NCBI RefSeq assembly: GCF_900188375.1
Contig: NZ_FZOO01000007.1
Span: 124,001 to 188,000 of the forward strand
Direction: 5' to 3'
Length of the DNA stretch: 64,000 bases
Origin: Geodermatophilus pulveris
Lineage (GTDB): Bacteria; Actinomycetota; Actinomycetes; Mycobacteriales; Geodermatophilaceae
Part shown: in pieces, positions 2,558 to 8,302 of the stretch
How the letters are laid out: each line of letters opens with the position of its first letter
Position numbering within the stretch: position 1 is the first letter of the stretch
Notes under the pieces: generated by a model
Seen by the model: the letters and a program-made list of their open reading frames with translations, nothing else
What the model was told of the DNA's origin: nothing
Databases searched by the model: none
Made by a program: the position numbers and the translations under genes

Positions 2558-3604
2558 TCAGCAGGACAGGGCGATCGTGGTGCTCACCGCTGAGGACTCC
2601 CACGTGCCGCGGTGGGCCCACAACCGGAAGGTGTAGCTGACCCCGTTGGGCAGCGGTCCCTCCGTGGTGGCCGTCGTCCCGACGGAGGTCAGCGACCGGG
2701 TCGCCTGGACCGTGCCGCCCGCACTGCGTTCGAGCCGGTACCCGTCGGCCCAGGAGCTGGGGCTGGCGGTCCACGTGAGGCTCGCTCCGGCCTGCTCCAG
2801 GGCCGGACGCAGGACGACCGCCTGGGCGATCCACGGGGTCGTGGAGCCGGACACCGTCGAGGTCCGCCGCGGGATGGCACCGGGCCCCGCGAACGGCTCG
2901 TCGGCCGCGGTGACGCCCTCGGAATCGGAGCTGAGCCGCCAGCGCCCGGTGGTGCCCGCCGGTGTCGGGAACTGGGCCGAGCCCTTCGCCAGGAGGTGGA
3001 GGACCACCACACCGGTCGCCGTCGTCGTCAGCCCCGGCGAGGTCGCCTTCTCGCCGGAACCGGTGGCCACACCCTCGACGGAAACCGGGGCGCTCCGGCT
3101 GACCCCGCTGTAGGCGACGATGCCGCCCACCATGTCGCCGTTGTCCGTGCTGGGACGAGAGAAGGTGGCGGCCGGCTCACCCGCCGCGGCGACCTTCCGG
3201 TAGACGGCGGAGGTCACGAGGCTCCCGCTCGTGTCCTTGCGGACGAGGGTCCAGTCGCTGGGGGCCGTGATGCTCGAGGTGCCGTAGTAGACGACCTGGG
3301 CCACCAGGACGTCGCCCGACCGGGTCTCGCTGGGGACACCGAGGCTGAGCGGCGAGGGACTGGTCGAGGCGAGGGCACCCCGGACCGCGATGGGTGCGTA
3401 CGAGCACGCCTGGATGGCGGCCAGGTCCGACGGTGGGCGCAACCAGTCGGTCGCCAGGGAGTTGGCGGGGTTGCCGGTCGCGGCCGAGAACGCCGAGTGC
3501 GCCGTCGGGAGCGCCGGCACGGCGACGACCAGTCCCAGCGCGGTGACGACGGCGACCAGTGGCGCGCGGGGGAACCGCGGGGCACGCCGGTGCGGCCGGT
3601 CCAT
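2558..3604 (-). CDS. Secreted fibronectin-III protein with SipW-type leader (copy 1 of a tandem pair)
   Basis: About 348 residues. The chosen ATG (3604) lies 6 bp behind GGGGAGGG; an ATG two codons earlier sits too close to that site. Basic N-terminus (DRPHRRAPRF), hydrophobic segment about 14-34, then AFSAATGNPANSLATD, the same post-leader motif as in the neighbouring genes. The middle domain shares DVLVAQVVYYG, MVGGIVAYSGVS and WIAQAVVLRP with the downstream paralogue, and the C-terminus is fibronectin-III-like (LTWTASPSSWADGY, YTFRLWAHRG) ending in Cys. It lies 151 bp below the GGDEF gene on the same strand. Probably exported by Sec and cut by the SipW-type peptidase encoded at 6.6-7.3 kb; role in adhesion or matrix is inferred. 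Confidence 0.8.
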   Translation of the reverse strand: MDRPHRRAPRFPRAPLVAVVTALGLVVAVPALPTAHSAFSAATGNPANSLATDWLRPPSDLAAIQACSYAPIAVRGALASTSPSPLSLGVPSETRSGDVLVAQVVYYGTSSITAPSDWTLVRKDTSGSLVTSAVYRKVAAAGEPAATFSRPSTDNGDMVGGIVAYSGVSRSAPVSVEGVATGSGEKATSPGLTTTATGVVVLHLLAKGSAQFPTPAGTTGRWRLSSDSEGVTAADEPFAGPGAIPRRTSTVSGSTTPWIAQAVVLRPALEQAGASLTWTASPSSWADGYRLERSAGGTVQATRSLTSVGTTATTEGPLPNGVSYTFRLWAHRGTWESSAVSTTIALSC

Positions 3605-3755
3605 CGCCATCCCTCCCCGTCCGGTCCCGCGTGCCCGCAGGATCCCGGTCCAGGCATCGGCACCGGGAGGGCGTGGCTTGAGTCCGCCGAGGCCCGGAGG
3701 CCGTCCCCTGCCCCGGAGGGAGGAGCGCCACGGCGTCCGGTCGGAGGGACTCCGG

Positions 3756-5417
3756 TCAGGGGGCCGCGTGCGCCCGGGCCGGCACGGGCGGGAGCGGGAG
3801 CGCCGCGACGGTCGGCTCGTCGACGGCGACGCCGGTGACCGCTCCCTCCACACCCGCCAGGTGGGCCTGGTCCCGCCCGCCGGCCTTGGCGGCGTACAGG
3901 GCCGTGTCCGCGGTGGCGAGGAGTTCCGCGGCGGACAGGCCGGCCCCGAGCTGGCAGGCGATGCCCAGGCTCGCCGTGATCGGCCTCGGTGCCTCCACCT
4001 CCCGCAGGACCGTGCGCAGCCGGCCCGCGACCGCGACGGCGTCGTCCGCCGTGGCGCCGGGCAGGACCAGCGCGAACTCCTCACCGCCGTAGCGCGCGGC
4101 GACGTCGCCGGGCCGCACGCAGGACCGCAGGGCGGCACCCACACCGCGCAGGACGTCGTCGCCGGCCTGGTGACCGTAGGTGTCGTTGAGCTTCTTGAAG
4201 TGGTCGAGGTCGATGATGAGGACCGACACCGGCGCACCGGTGCGGGCCGCGACCGCCAGCTCCCGCTCGAACGCGGCGTCGAAGGCCCGGCGGTTGGCCA
4301 CCCCGGTGAGACCGTCGGTGAGCGCGCTGGCCTGCAGGTGCTCGAGCAGCGCGACGCGCGCGAACGCCGTCGCGGCGTGCGCCACCGCCTGTTCGGCGAC
4401 ACCGACGCGGCGTCGCTCGATGCGCGAGCCGGTGCGCGCGTCGTCCTGGAAGGTCAGGACCCCGCTGCCGGAGCCGTCCAGACCGAACGGGACGGCGACC
4501 ACCCGCCGGGCGCCCTCGAGCACCTCGTCCACCCATGCGTCCGGGCCCTTCATGGCCGCCAGGACCGTGCTGCCCTGGTCCACCGCTGCGGCGAGCAGCG
4601 ACCCCGGTGGGGGTGCGCCGACCGCCCGCAGGGGCTCGGCGTCCTGGTCCCGGTGCTTGCGGACGGCCAGGTCGACCGCGGGTACCGCGCTGCCCTCGGG
4701 TACGTGGCAGTGCACCGCGGCCAGCGGGGAGTCGGCGGCGTCGACGGTGAAGTCGAGCAGCGCCTCGGCCACCTTGGCACCGGTGTCCGCCTCGTGCAGG
4801 GCGCCCGCCAGCCGGCGCAGCGCCTCCTCGTCGTAGCGACGGCGGCGCAGCTCGCGCTCGTTCACCGCGCCCAGGCCCGAGGTCATCACCGCGGTCACCC
4901 AGACGGCGACGAGGAACACCCCGTAGGGCAGGGACTCGAAGCCCTGGACGCTGCCGTGCGCGGGCAGCAGGGCCGTGTCGACCGCCTTGAGGACCGACAT
5001 CACCACGAGCGAGTGCCACAGGGCGAGCTTGAGCCCGGTGCGGAACGAGCCCAGCAGCGTGACGCAGATGACGTGCAGGACGATCACGTACACCACCGGC
5101 CCGGTGATGCCGCCGGCGACGTAGAGCGCCCACCCCAGGTGGACCGCGTCGAGGATCACCGGCACCGTGATCGCCGCCACCGCCCAGCGACGGCCGAGCG
5201 CCGACAGCCGGTGCAGCAGGAGCCCCACGGCCAGCAGCACCACGCCGGGCACGACGAGGGTCTCCACCGCGGGTGTGTCGGCCGTCCGCGCGATCGCCCA
5301 CGCCGCCACCGGCAGGAGGACGACGACGCCGATGCGGACGGCGAGCAGCCACCGCAGGCGGTCGGCCAGGGGCAGGTTGTCCAGGGAACCCTGTGGGGAG
5401 GCAGTCGTCTGACTCAT
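3756..5417 (-). CDS. Membrane-bound diguanylate cyclase (GGDEF)
   Basis: 553 residues. The N-terminal 170 residues hold five or six membrane helices (for example [32 protein letters not shown]). A GAF-like region spans about 200-350. The GGDEF domain (about 375-535) carries [13 protein letters not shown], the active-site motif GGEEF near 444-448, and the inhibitory I-site RPGD five residues before it, so it should be an active, product-inhibited cyclase making c-di-GMP from two GTP. The ATG start overlaps the stop of the TasA-like stalk gene by 4 bp (ATGA), which implies translational coupling and a link between c-di-GMP and the secreted-protein locus. Confidence 0.9.
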
Positions 5418-6469
5418 GCGGGCGTCGTCCTCGGCAACTCGGGGAACTCGCGGAAGTCGTTCAGTTCCTGGTGGACCCGGGCCAGCGCCAGCTTCGGGTC
5501 CCTGCGGTCGAGACGGCCCTGCACGGCGAGGAAGCCCGCGGACACGGCGACCAGCGCGAGCGGGAACTGGCCGTCCTCGACGACCGCGAGGGCCGTCTCC
5601 CCCACCGCGGCGGCCACCTCCGCGACCGTCGAGGGGGACGCCTGCAACGGCGGCGCCTGGACGACGTCGCCGCCCCCGCGCGGAGCGGTCACCCGCGGGG
5701 TCGGGGCCGGGCTCGGGGCCTCGGACGTCGGGGCCGGCTCCGGCGGGGTGGTCGGGACGGCGGTCGGCGTGGGCGCCGGCGTGGGCGTGGGCGCCGGCGT
5801 GGGCGTCGGCGTGGGCGTCGGCGTGGGCGTCGGCGTGGGCGTCGGCGTGGGCGCCGGCGCGGGGGTCACCGGCGCGGGCGCCGGGAGTGGGGTCGGCTCC
5901 GGTGCCGGCTCGAAGTCGAGGGCCCAGACGAAAGCGGCCGCGGCACGCAGGCCCTGCGCCCGGTGGTCGTCGAGGACCGTGACGCTGACCCGATAGGTCG
6001 TCGAGGTCTCCACCCCCGGCCGCCAGCCCGTCGGGACCCCCGCGGCTGCCGTCCGGGGCAGCTGGGCCAGCGTGCCGCTCCACGCGGGTACGCCGACGAA
6101 GGACGCGCACCGCGCCGGGTCACCGAGGGCGCCCCGCTCGACGGTGAGGTACAGGTAGGGCGCGAGGGCGTCCTCGGCGACCTCGGCGCTGAGCGTCACC
6201 TCGCCGAGGGACTGGGCGGATCCGGTCACCGTCAGGGCCACGCACGCGCTCTCCGTGGAACCGGGGCGCAGGCCGGCCGAGGTGAACAGCGCCGCACCGC
6301 CGCGGTCGTCCACCAGGTTGACCGCGCTGGTGCTCGCGGCCGCCGGCTCGACCGGCACCGGGAGCCACCCGGCCGTCAGGTGGGCGAACAGGGCGGCGCC
6401 GGCGAACCAGGCGGCGCCTGTGCTGCTCCTCAGCAGGCGCGGGGATGCGGGAAGCGGTGCTGGGCGCAC
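5414..6469 (-). CDS. TasA-like secreted protein with Pro-Thr stalk and C-terminal membrane anchor
   Basis: 351 residues from a GTG behind GAAGGGGGAGA. An N-terminal hydrophobic segment (about 18-36) leads into a domain homologous to the TasA-like protein upstream: both show a run of GxALF, LRPGST, a Cys, then PYLxxxVERG. Residues about 190-265 are a Pro/Thr/Ala stalk, perfectly alternating PT at 203-234. A single transmembrane helix ([16 protein letters not shown], about 302-317) and a charged tail of some 34 residues follow. This is the layout of a surface protein held by a C-terminal anchor with a cytoplasmic tail. It could tether fibres made by the other TasA-like protein; that is inference. 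It overlaps the GGDEF gene by 4 bp. Confidence 0.8.
5766..5860. repeat. Low-complexity GC tandem repeat coding a Pro-Thr stalk
   Basis: Units of gtgggc(g)tcggc repeat about eight times with a gcc variant at the ends. On the minus strand they encode alternating Pro-Thr within the stalk protein at 5414-6469. The 12-bp period keeps frame, so stalk length can vary between strains. Confidence 0.85.
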
Positions 6470-6577: not shown

Positions 6578-7288
6578 TCACCGGACCGGGTCGCCGACCG
6601 CCACCGGCTTCCGGGCGCCGGTCCCGGGTCGGCCGGTGGGCGGCACGGGCGGCAGCCCGACCCGGGGGACGACGCGGTCCGGGGCCGGGGTGGCCGCGAG
6701 CCGGTCGGCGCTGGTGCGGCCCCGCGGCTCCGCACCCGGGCCCGAGCCCGGGCCCAGGGTGGAGACGCTCGCCGCGACGAGGAGGGCGGTGAGCAGGCCC
6801 AGCCGGCCCCACTGCCCGGTGCCCCGCCAGTACGCGGGCAGCCCGACGTAGGGGACGCGCAGCTGCGCCTGGCCGATGACGCTCGCGGCCGGCACGTGCG
6901 TGCTGTCGTTGCTCTGGTTGGCGTCGCCCCGGGTGACGAGGTCGCCTCGCTCGTCGAAGGAGACGAGGCGGTGGAGCACCAGCCGGTCGGCCCCCTCGGG
7001 ATCGGGGAAGAGGATCACCTGGCCCGGCTGCAGCTCCTGGGGGAGCACCGCCCGCGTCAGCACGACGTCGCCGGGCGAGATCCGCGGCTCCATCGAGCCG
7101 GAGACGACCACGTGGCCCTGGAGACCGACGAGCCGCGGTGCGAGGGCGAGGAACACCAGTCCGGCGATGGCCACCAGCAGCGCCGCGATGGCCACACGGC
7201 ACACCGAGGCGGCGTCGCCGCGCAGGCCGGCCGTGCGTCCGGTCGGGACCTGACGACGGGAACCGTCGCCCGGGGAGGTCGCGGTCAC
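6578..7288 (-). CDS. sipW: Signal peptidase I, ER/SipW type
   Basis: 236 residues. A first helix (about 31-50) is followed by the nucleophile motif SGSMEP (Ser65). The general base is His106 in LVLHRLVSF, and acidic residues occur in TRGDANQSND (Asp122, Asp128). Ser-His instead of Ser-Lys is the mark of ER-type peptidases such as Bacillus SipW, which cleave biofilm precursors TasA and TapA. A second helix lies near 160-178, with a Pro-rich cytoplasmic tail. The GTG start overlaps the stop of the upstream TasA-like gene by 4 bp (GTGA), the usual sipW arrangement next to its substrate. It should process the leaders of the secreted proteins in this locus. Confidence 0.9.
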   Translation of the reverse strand: MTATSPGDGSRRQVPTGRTAGLRGDAASVCRVAIAALLVAIAGLVFLALAPRLVGLQGHVVVSGSMEPRISPGDVVLTRAVLPQELQPGQVILFPDPEGADRLVLHRLVSFDERGDLVTRGDANQSNDSTHVPAASVIGQAQLRVPYVGLPAYWRGTGQWGRLGLLTALLVAASVSTLGPGSGPGAEPRGRTSADRLAATPAPDRVVPRVGLPPVPPTGRPGTGARKPVAVGDPVR

Positions 7289-7959
7289 TGGGTGTTCTGC
7301 GCTTCCCACGTGAACGTGGCGCTCGACTGCTTGCTCTGCGCCCCGTTGTCGTCCTTGACGGCGTAGGTGACCCGGAGGGTCAGGTACGTGCTCGGCGCGG
7401 TGTTCGCGCTGACGACCACGCCGGTCCCGTAGTCCGCGTGGGTGGCCTTGAGGTGGGTCAGCGTCCGCGAGCCGTCCGCCGTGGAGGCATCGGCCTGCTG
7501 GGTGTTGTAGAGGAACGTCGGCGTGGTGGTGGAGGCGAAGCCGGCGCTGCAGTCGGCCGCCACCGTGGTCCCCGAGGCGACGTCCCTGCCCCGCTCCACG
7601 CTCATCACCAGATAGGGGTCCAGCGCAGTCGCGCCGCCGGACGGCGTCCCCGCGTACATGCGGACGTCGGCCGGCAGGCTGCCGGTGTAGTCGATCCGGA
7701 TGCAGCGCGACCGGGTCGAGCCGGGCCTGAGGGCACCGTCGTGGGGGCTGACGGCGCTGTCGGTGGTGAAGAGGGCCGATCCGCTGTCGCTGTCGGCGAG
7801 GACCACGCTGCCGGTCTGCCACGAGTTGCCGGGGTTGTCGGTGCTCGCCGAGAAGGCCGCGTGGGTCGATCCCCACGTGACGGCGAGGCTCAGCACCAGG
7901 CCCACGGGCACCGCCACGGGGAGCACGGTGCGACGGGCCCGGGGTGCACGATGATGCAC
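7285..7959 (-). CDS. TasA/CalY-like SipW-dependent secreted protein
   Basis: 224 residues from a GTG behind GGAGGAGTTCCC. Leader: basic start (HHRAPRARR), hydrophobic core about 11-34, then AAFSASTDNPGNSWQTG, the typical end of SipW-dependent precursors. The mature part is beta-rich with two Cys (RCIRIDY and ADCSAG) and ends in SSATFTWEAQN. The family in Bacillus (TasA, CalY) forms extracellular fibres in biofilm. It is the first gene of the minus-strand run and overlaps the signal peptidase gene by 4 bp, so the two are coupled. Assignment to the TasA-like superfamily is firm by leader and context; fibre formation is inference. Confidence 0.82.
   Translation of the reverse strand: MHHRAPRARRTVLPVAVPVGLVLSLAVTWGSTHAAFSASTDNPGNSWQTGSVVLADSDSGSALFTTDSAVSPHDGALRPGSTRSRCIRIDYTGSLPADVRMYAGTPSGGATALDPYLVMSVERGRDVASGTTVAADCSAGFASTTTPTFLYNTQQADASTADGSRTLTHLKATHADYGTGVVVSANTAPSTYLTLRVTYAVKDDNGAQSKQSSATFTWEAQNTQ

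Positions 7960-8226: not shown

Positions 8227-8302
<76 letters not shown>

Follow-up and report, generated by a model that had tools for sequence, protein, structure and literature searches.

The genes considered here lie on the minus strand of Geodermatophilus pulveris, in a stretch of 64,000 nucleotides (the window) taken from an assembly of 4.4 Mb; the GC content of the window is about 76%. In the order of their transcription, they are the following.

7959–7285, minus strand: candidate TasA-like fibre subunit (7285–7959), homologous to the head of the stalked protein
7288–6578, minus strand: signal peptidase of the SipW/archaeal type (6578–7288; NCBIfam TIGR02228, Pfam Peptidase_S26)
6469–5414, minus strand: stalked, membrane-anchored TasA-like protein of 351 aa (5414–6469; open reading frame and translation, GTG start)
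5417–3756, minus strand: 6TM protein with a GGDEF domain, 553 aa (3756–5417; Pfam GGDEF, 1e-45)
3610–2558, minus strand: exported protein, labelled FN3a here, with a SipW-type signal and a donor-strand-like start (2558–3610; gene call, N-terminus by eye)
2543–1473, minus strand: exported protein, labelled FN3b here, the second of the FN3a kind (1473–2543; gene call)

Stop and start codons overlap between the TasA-like gene and the peptidase gene, and again between the stalk gene and the GGDEF gene. The gene caller was trained on the ten genes of the window itself. The peptidase exceeds the cutoffs of TIGR02228 (76.3 bits, cutoff 51.85) and of Pfam Peptidase_S26 (26.7, cutoff 22.9) and stays under that of the Bacillus SipW model NF046067 (53.7, cutoff 190), and FN3b has a weak match to Pfam fn3 (0.021), under the cutoff. 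The start codon of the stalk gene is uncertain, as its frame is open for 36 codons farther upstream; several orthologues align from the GTG start.

The closest named relatives of the stalk gene belong to four Geodermatophilus species (74–83% identity in the best segment). Within the genus, an orthologue with both head and tail was found in 11 of 26 genomes, own included, and a twelfth match is a TasA-like gene adjoining a SipW-type peptidase (G002). The order TasA-like gene, peptidase, stalk gene and GGDEF gene is kept at all 11 loci, and at 10 of them one or two of the exported proteins are encoded farther downstream as well. A gene for tRNA-Ala (CGC) lies immediately upstream of the cluster, at 8227–8302 of the window, a possible insertion site given the distribution of the stalk gene in the genus.

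The stalked protein and its TasA-like head

From the N- to the C-terminus, the stalk gene and its product comprise these parts.

6365–6421, minus strand: hydrophobic core of the N-terminal signal segment, the second most hydrophobic 19-mer of the protein
5900–6352, minus strand: TasA-like head, residues 40–190 (AlphaFold2, Foldseek, VIA)
5684–5914, minus strand: Pro/Thr stalk, residues 186–262 (composition)
5516–5566, minus strand: C-terminal transmembrane helix, residues 302–318 (hydropathy; aligned tails)
5417–5515, minus strand: cytoplasmic tail of 33 residues, conserved together with the helix in the tail alignments A1 and A2
5489–5509, minus strand: tail motif DRRDPKL (profile alignment, 80 loci)
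5414–5417, minus strand: ATGA, 4 nt in which the stop of the stalk gene overlaps the start of the cyclase gene

The N-terminal hydrophobic segment is presumably a signal peptide. A preliminary description of this DNA had proposed a TasA-like head on a stalk of about 75 Pro-Thr or Pro-Ala residues, followed by a membrane helix and a cytoplasmic tail of 34 residues and encoded in overlap with a cyclase. The stalk (77 aa, 43% Pro and 26% Thr) and the four-nucleotide overlap agree with this account, as does, by hydropathy, a single C-terminal helix; the tail is one residue shorter than stated. The helix lies within the most hydrophobic 19-mer of the protein, and its Kyte-Doolittle mean of 1.55 is borderline, slightly below the 1.6 that is the usual threshold for a membrane helix. 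In a chosen set of 42 tail helices, own included, 40 reach 1.6, with a median of 2.15.

The head is homologous to the protein of 7285–7959 (BLASTP, 46.6 bits, E 1e-10, 33% identity over 172 columns), as had been supposed. No camelysin/TasA model of Pfam or NCBIfam matched either protein at E ≤ 1, and for this reason they are called TasA-like here and not members of that family. Since a profile of the TasA-like genes found TasA among PDB sequences only at E 0.6–0.7, with an endoglucanase (0.12) and a nanobody (0.27) ranked above it, a fold search was used. For the AlphaFold2 model of the head (29 alignment rows, pLDDT 85.2, pTM 0.79), the sole Foldseek match in the PDB under 0.001 was the TasA fibre 8aur_A (E 1.4e-4). 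With VIA, 8aur came first (Z 9.1, 144 residues, rmsd 5.0) and 5of1 second (Z 8.4, 121 residues, rmsd 3.1), followed by CanA tubes and chaperone-usher pilins (Z 7 to 7.7). By sequence and predicted fold, the TasA-like head with an anchor of its own was thus correctly recognized. That the protein is an ordinary TasA subunit was ruled out by the missing donor strand, the stalk and the helix.

TasA fibres grow by means of an N-terminal strand, residues 28–38, which completes the next subunit, according to excerpts of the source (PMC9674648). The corresponding candidate in the cluster belongs to the TasA-like subunit.

7810–7857, minus strand: N-terminal AFSASTDNPGNSWQTG segment of the TasA-like subunit, donor-strand candidate (pattern)

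The donor-segment pattern matched 17 of 20 TasA-like genes (the other three were recognized by eye) and none of 20 tailed heads; it was composed after the alignment had been viewed, and one tailed head, L135_3, was truncated by the gene caller. Inspection by eye of 16 sequences, the two downstream exported proteins together with homologues, showed a similar signal and, after it, a start resembling AFSATT.NP; a stricter donor-start pattern matched 3 of the 16. Because the head lacks the N-terminal donor strand of TasA, the stalked protein may be an acceptor-only fibre anchor. Its head would accept the donor strand of the 7285–7959 subunit, so that the fibre would be tethered, and the exported proteins of 1473–2543 and 2558–3610, which combine a donor-like start with another domain, may cap the opposite end. 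On such a polarity, the anchor of the cluster could act only as an acceptor, the subunit as both donor and acceptor, and the caps only as donors. The chances of this fibre-acceptor detail seem to us about even, lower than those of the receptor-pair reading given below. The tethering of fibres that was suggested earlier is plausible and is sharpened by the missing donor strand, the fibre itself being presumed.

TasA of Bacillus subtilis (8aur, 5of1; tapA-sipW-tasA) resembles the stalk protein in the fold of the head, and its cluster likewise associates a SipW/archaeal-type peptidase with a TasA-like subunit. Unlike TasA, the stalk protein has no donor strand, continues beyond its head into a stalk, a membrane helix and a cytoplasmic tail, and is encoded beside a cyclase. 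TapA is an accessory component which, in excerpts of two reports, is proposed to start or anchor TasA fibres (PMC9674648, PMC10151520), and the stalk protein is a proposed fibre anchor as well. However, the excerpted text describes TapA as a strand donor that cannot itself be an acceptor (PMC10151520), whereas the head of the stalk protein could only accept, and the polarity would be opposite.

The 6TM-GGDEF partner

Within the neighbouring gene, the following features were located.

4821–5417, minus strand: 6TM domain (AlphaFold2, six helices, pLDDT 91.4)
4104–4115, minus strand: RPGD, I-site-like (sequence)
4074–4088, minus strand: GGEEF active-site motif (sequence)

We take GGEEF to be the active-site motif and RPGD to be I-site-like. 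With a Pfam GGDEF domain and a motif of the form GG(D/E)EF, the protein is predicted to be active as a diguanylate cyclase. Pfam GAF gave no match in it; its residues 191–355 match (3e-9) the partner at locus L129, in which Pfam calls GAF, and this likeness to relatives suggests that the middle of the cyclase is a GAF region.

To our knowledge, few of the signals read by 6TM domains of membrane cyclases have been identified. That of the window matches Pfam 6TM_PilS weakly (E 0.008, 16.3 bits), below the cutoff of 27 that is passed at L119 (33.5 bits) and L184 (27.4 bits), and 21 of 45 rows match this model at E 0.01 or better. In the fold comparison with VIA, ImcA (8wcn) came first at Z 11.0 over 180 residues, a score in the range below 13 that can be common for helical bundles, and was followed by the adenylyl cyclases AC9, AC8 and Rv1625c; Foldseek returned no match under 0.001. 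Residues R20, R28, R126, E187 and R188 are invariant and, if the N-terminus is inside, would be placed toward the cytoplasmic ends of helices 1, 5 and 6.

Tail and 6TM domain across the Actinomycetota

A profile of the genus tails matched in 23 of 200 genomes of the order, on very different proteins. The wider profile A2, in whose 20 rows F, Q, D, R, R, D, P and L are invariant, matched in 18 of 394 genomes of the class and in 20 of 396 genomes of the phylum, in searches that pre-filter and score few candidates per genome, so that absences are not proof. Together with the genus set, 80 distinct tail loci were obtained, a count that retains three probably false matches (L075, L076 and L100, under 23 bits). 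The profiles behind these and the following counts (tail.hmm, six.hmm and head.hmm) were each built partly from loci that they later counted.

In the profile alignment of the 80 loci, the DRRDPKL motif is conserved as D 79, R 73, R 62, D 77, P 72, K 73 and L 78. Its codons vary synonymously, with five for each of the two R and for L, and three for P (75 loci, found by a pattern fixing the first D). Judging by its sequences, the tail is conserved and selected as a protein. A DNA element in place of a protein motif was excluded by these varied codons and by the occurrence of the motif with no cyclase following. Among 20 rows, each Pfam model that matched the tail did so in one row at most, with E values of 0.03 or worse, and no NCBIfam model reached its cutoff on nine tailed proteins; the tail family is thus without a name in these two profile libraries. 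A narrow literature search (titles and starts of abstracts; few subscription papers, no bioRxiv preprints) returned, among the matches listed, no description of the tail or of the tail/6TM pair, and none of TasA-like anchors in Actinomycetota.

The bearers of the tail are diverse. Across the phylum, they include TasA-like heads, giant proteins with Ig or NHL repeats and short Pro-rich proteins. At the 64 loci where a 6TM gene follows, 23 ectodomains are TasA-like, 22 belong to open frames of at least 700 aa and 19 are neither; at the 16 unpaired loci the corresponding numbers are 1, 1 and 14, and two loci cut by contig ends (L064 and L077) may be wrongly classed as "other". When six tailed proteins were scanned with Pfam, two of them (2306 and 2870 aa) had 8 and 25 Big_13 stretches, a third of 1528 aa had NHL repeats, a fourth of 891 aa had four Big_13, and two had no match. 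TasA-like heads with this tail recur phylum-wide, and the tail is also carried by other heads; it is not specific to TasA heads.

At 64 of the 80 tail loci, a 6TM gene starts within 80 nt after the tail stop. Three of the 16 loci that have no adjacent 6TM gene are the weak matches under 23 bits. Eight of the 16 belong to genomes in which another tail locus is paired; when the other eight genomes were searched, a 6TM was found elsewhere in two and none in six, of which three (G154, G188 and G890; 81–89% complete) have clear tails (38–86 bits) and three rest on weak tail matches. In the sample of 394 genomes of the class, 16 have both partners, two the tail only (both weak matches) and three the 6TM only (Fisher 1.2e-23; 16 shared among 18 tail and 19 6TM genomes). 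In that of 396 genomes of the phylum, 18 have both, two the tail only (G637 weak, G890 clear) and eight the 6TM only (Fisher 4.7e-23; 18 shared among 20 tail and 26 6TM genomes); both values ignore kinship, so that independence is overstated for related genomes. Starting from the 6TM domain, a tail was found directly upstream at 18 of 21 evaluable loci of the class, own included (the others are L154, L160 and L161; a further locus is truncated at the end of its contig), and at 17 of 26 loci of the phylum, own left out. A strong 6TM with no upstream tail, at L167, shares its genome with the orphan tail L097.

Eight 6TM loci of the phylum are diverged (32–112 bits). Seven of these are preceded by a gene whose product closes with a single helix and 18–29 further residues and matches no tail profile, and the eighth, L192, has no upstream tail gene. 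An ending in a helix and a short tail, taken as the anchor criterion, is found in 7 of the 7 genes preceding a diverged 6TM, against 24 of 359 background genes (binomial 4e-8, kinship again being ignored), and in 27 of 33 known tail genes. As diverged 6TM genes follow genes with diverged tails, we read tail and 6TM as diverging together, and the pairs at L184 and L186–L191 are possibly further plug-and-socket subfamilies.

The output domains vary as well. Among ten partners scanned, GGDEF was found in six and HisKA_3 with HATPase in four, with GAF above cutoff in three of the former and three of the latter. By BLAST, seven loci are of the kinase type; an EAL gene adjoins at six of them (on the opposite strand at L115), and five of these six EAL genes have a REC part, two of them checked with Pfam. 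The stretch fetched for L117 held no EAL gene. Because kinase loci adjoin EAL genes, both kinds of output point, by neighbourhood, to c-di-GMP metabolism. Ectodomains and outputs are exchanged on a constant tail/6TM core. The kinase-type pairs beside EAL genes are L118, L119, L120, L121, L122 and L115, and the last of these has a second, orphan tail gene between two EAL genes.

A candidate receptor pair and its alternatives

The recurrence of one tail beside a membrane signalling enzyme suggests a common way of reporting the state of the cell surface. We consider it probable that stalk protein and cyclase are the two halves of a modular intramembrane receptor pair, which couples swappable surface proteins to c-di-GMP. 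The surface part would be one of many interchangeable ectodomains on a common helix and DRRDPKLA cytoplasmic tail; tail and helix would bind to the 6TM domain of the neighbouring gene product; and the activity of its GGDEF output, hence the level of c-di-GMP, would be set by the state of the surface part. Direct contact of the tail with the 6TM domain, signalling through it and the direction of the signal are presumed. The inward signal imagined in the preliminary description gains support from the strong phylum-wide pairing of the tail with a 6TM signalling protein, contact, signalling and direction staying conjectural, and the receptor idea is wider than that description, because the tail is not specific to TasA heads. 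More tentatively, these proteins may constitute a receptor class of the whole phylum Actinomycetota, with one plug (helix and DRRDPKLA tail), one 6TM socket, heads freely exchanged among fibre acceptors, short Pro-rich proteins and giant adhesins of the Ig or propeller type, and interchangeable outputs (GGDEF, or a kinase with a REC-EAL neighbour) that converge on c-di-GMP; in Geodermatophilus, an acceptor-only TasA head would let the cell read the attachment of fibres.

Gene pairing and tail conservation are compatible with either direction, and control could also run from the inside out, the enzyme or the c-di-GMP level acting on the tail to retain, release or display a surface protein that would be an output and not a sensor. 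This seems unlikely to us, in view of the GGDEF or kinase outputs of the partners and of the EAL genes beside six of seven kinase-type loci, which fit an output towards c-di-GMP; moreover, no known c-di-GMP receptor domain was found in the tailed proteins scanned. The tail might instead be a topogenic, sorting or degradation signal for general machinery, with a cyclase that is only co-transcribed, and the 16 of 80 tails with no adjacent 6TM gene, together with three clear-tail genomes that show no 6TM, would suit this explanation. It is made quite improbable by the co-occurrence in two samples of genomes, by the diverged 6TM genes that follow diverged tails and by a partner domain that is constant across two kinds of output. 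Since the stalk and cyclase genes overlap, a shared transcript is likely. The overlap would suit a conserved operon for surface-linked c-di-GMP production whose products do not touch, with an enzyme that responds to another stimulus and simply increases synthesis of the surface protein. However, such an operon leaves unexplained a helix and tail that stay constant amid swapped ectodomains and outputs, and we regard it as very unlikely.

The receptor-pair reading has parallels in known systems. By analogy, the pair resembles PilS-like sensing of a surface-fibre protein: PilS interacts directly with the pilin PilA in the excerpted report (PMC6058289), and there too a 6TM sensor, of the kind that the 6TM_PilS model describes, is joined to a fibre subunit. 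The present pairs differ in their GGDEF or HisKA_3-type output, their swapped ectodomains and a single-helix partner with a conserved cytoplasmic tail. ImcA of Pseudomonas aeruginosa, the top VIA fold, needs its transmembrane regions to bind its partner IsmP, as stated in excerpts of the source (PMC10904736), and is likewise a 6TM-GGDEF enzyme under the control of a membrane partner. In contrast to the stalk protein, IsmP is described in these excerpts as a multi-domain protein with CHASE4, GGDEF and EAL.

The tail provides a candidate protein ligand for the 6TM domain encoded next door, on surface proteins of very different kinds. If the receptor-pair reading is true, the control of c-di-GMP in Actinomycetota gains a surface input and TasA-like fibres gain a membrane anchor, and the DRRDPKLA tail would make many unnamed giant surface proteins recognizable as receptors.

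Several tails stand apart from the paired loci. The orphan tails L078, L079, L081 and L099 adjoin GGDEF or EAL genes. At L110, L111 and L112, in a neighbourhood of GGDEF and EAL genes, short Pro-rich proteins bear a variant tail, D(R/K)RDVKL, with no 6TM of this family directly after. At L055 and L056 (L108 and L109 in longer stretches), orphan tails are borne by Pro/Ser-rich proteins, and the next gene, similar in both, encodes 342 aa that by eye look like a hydrolase of the metallo-beta-lactamase fold.
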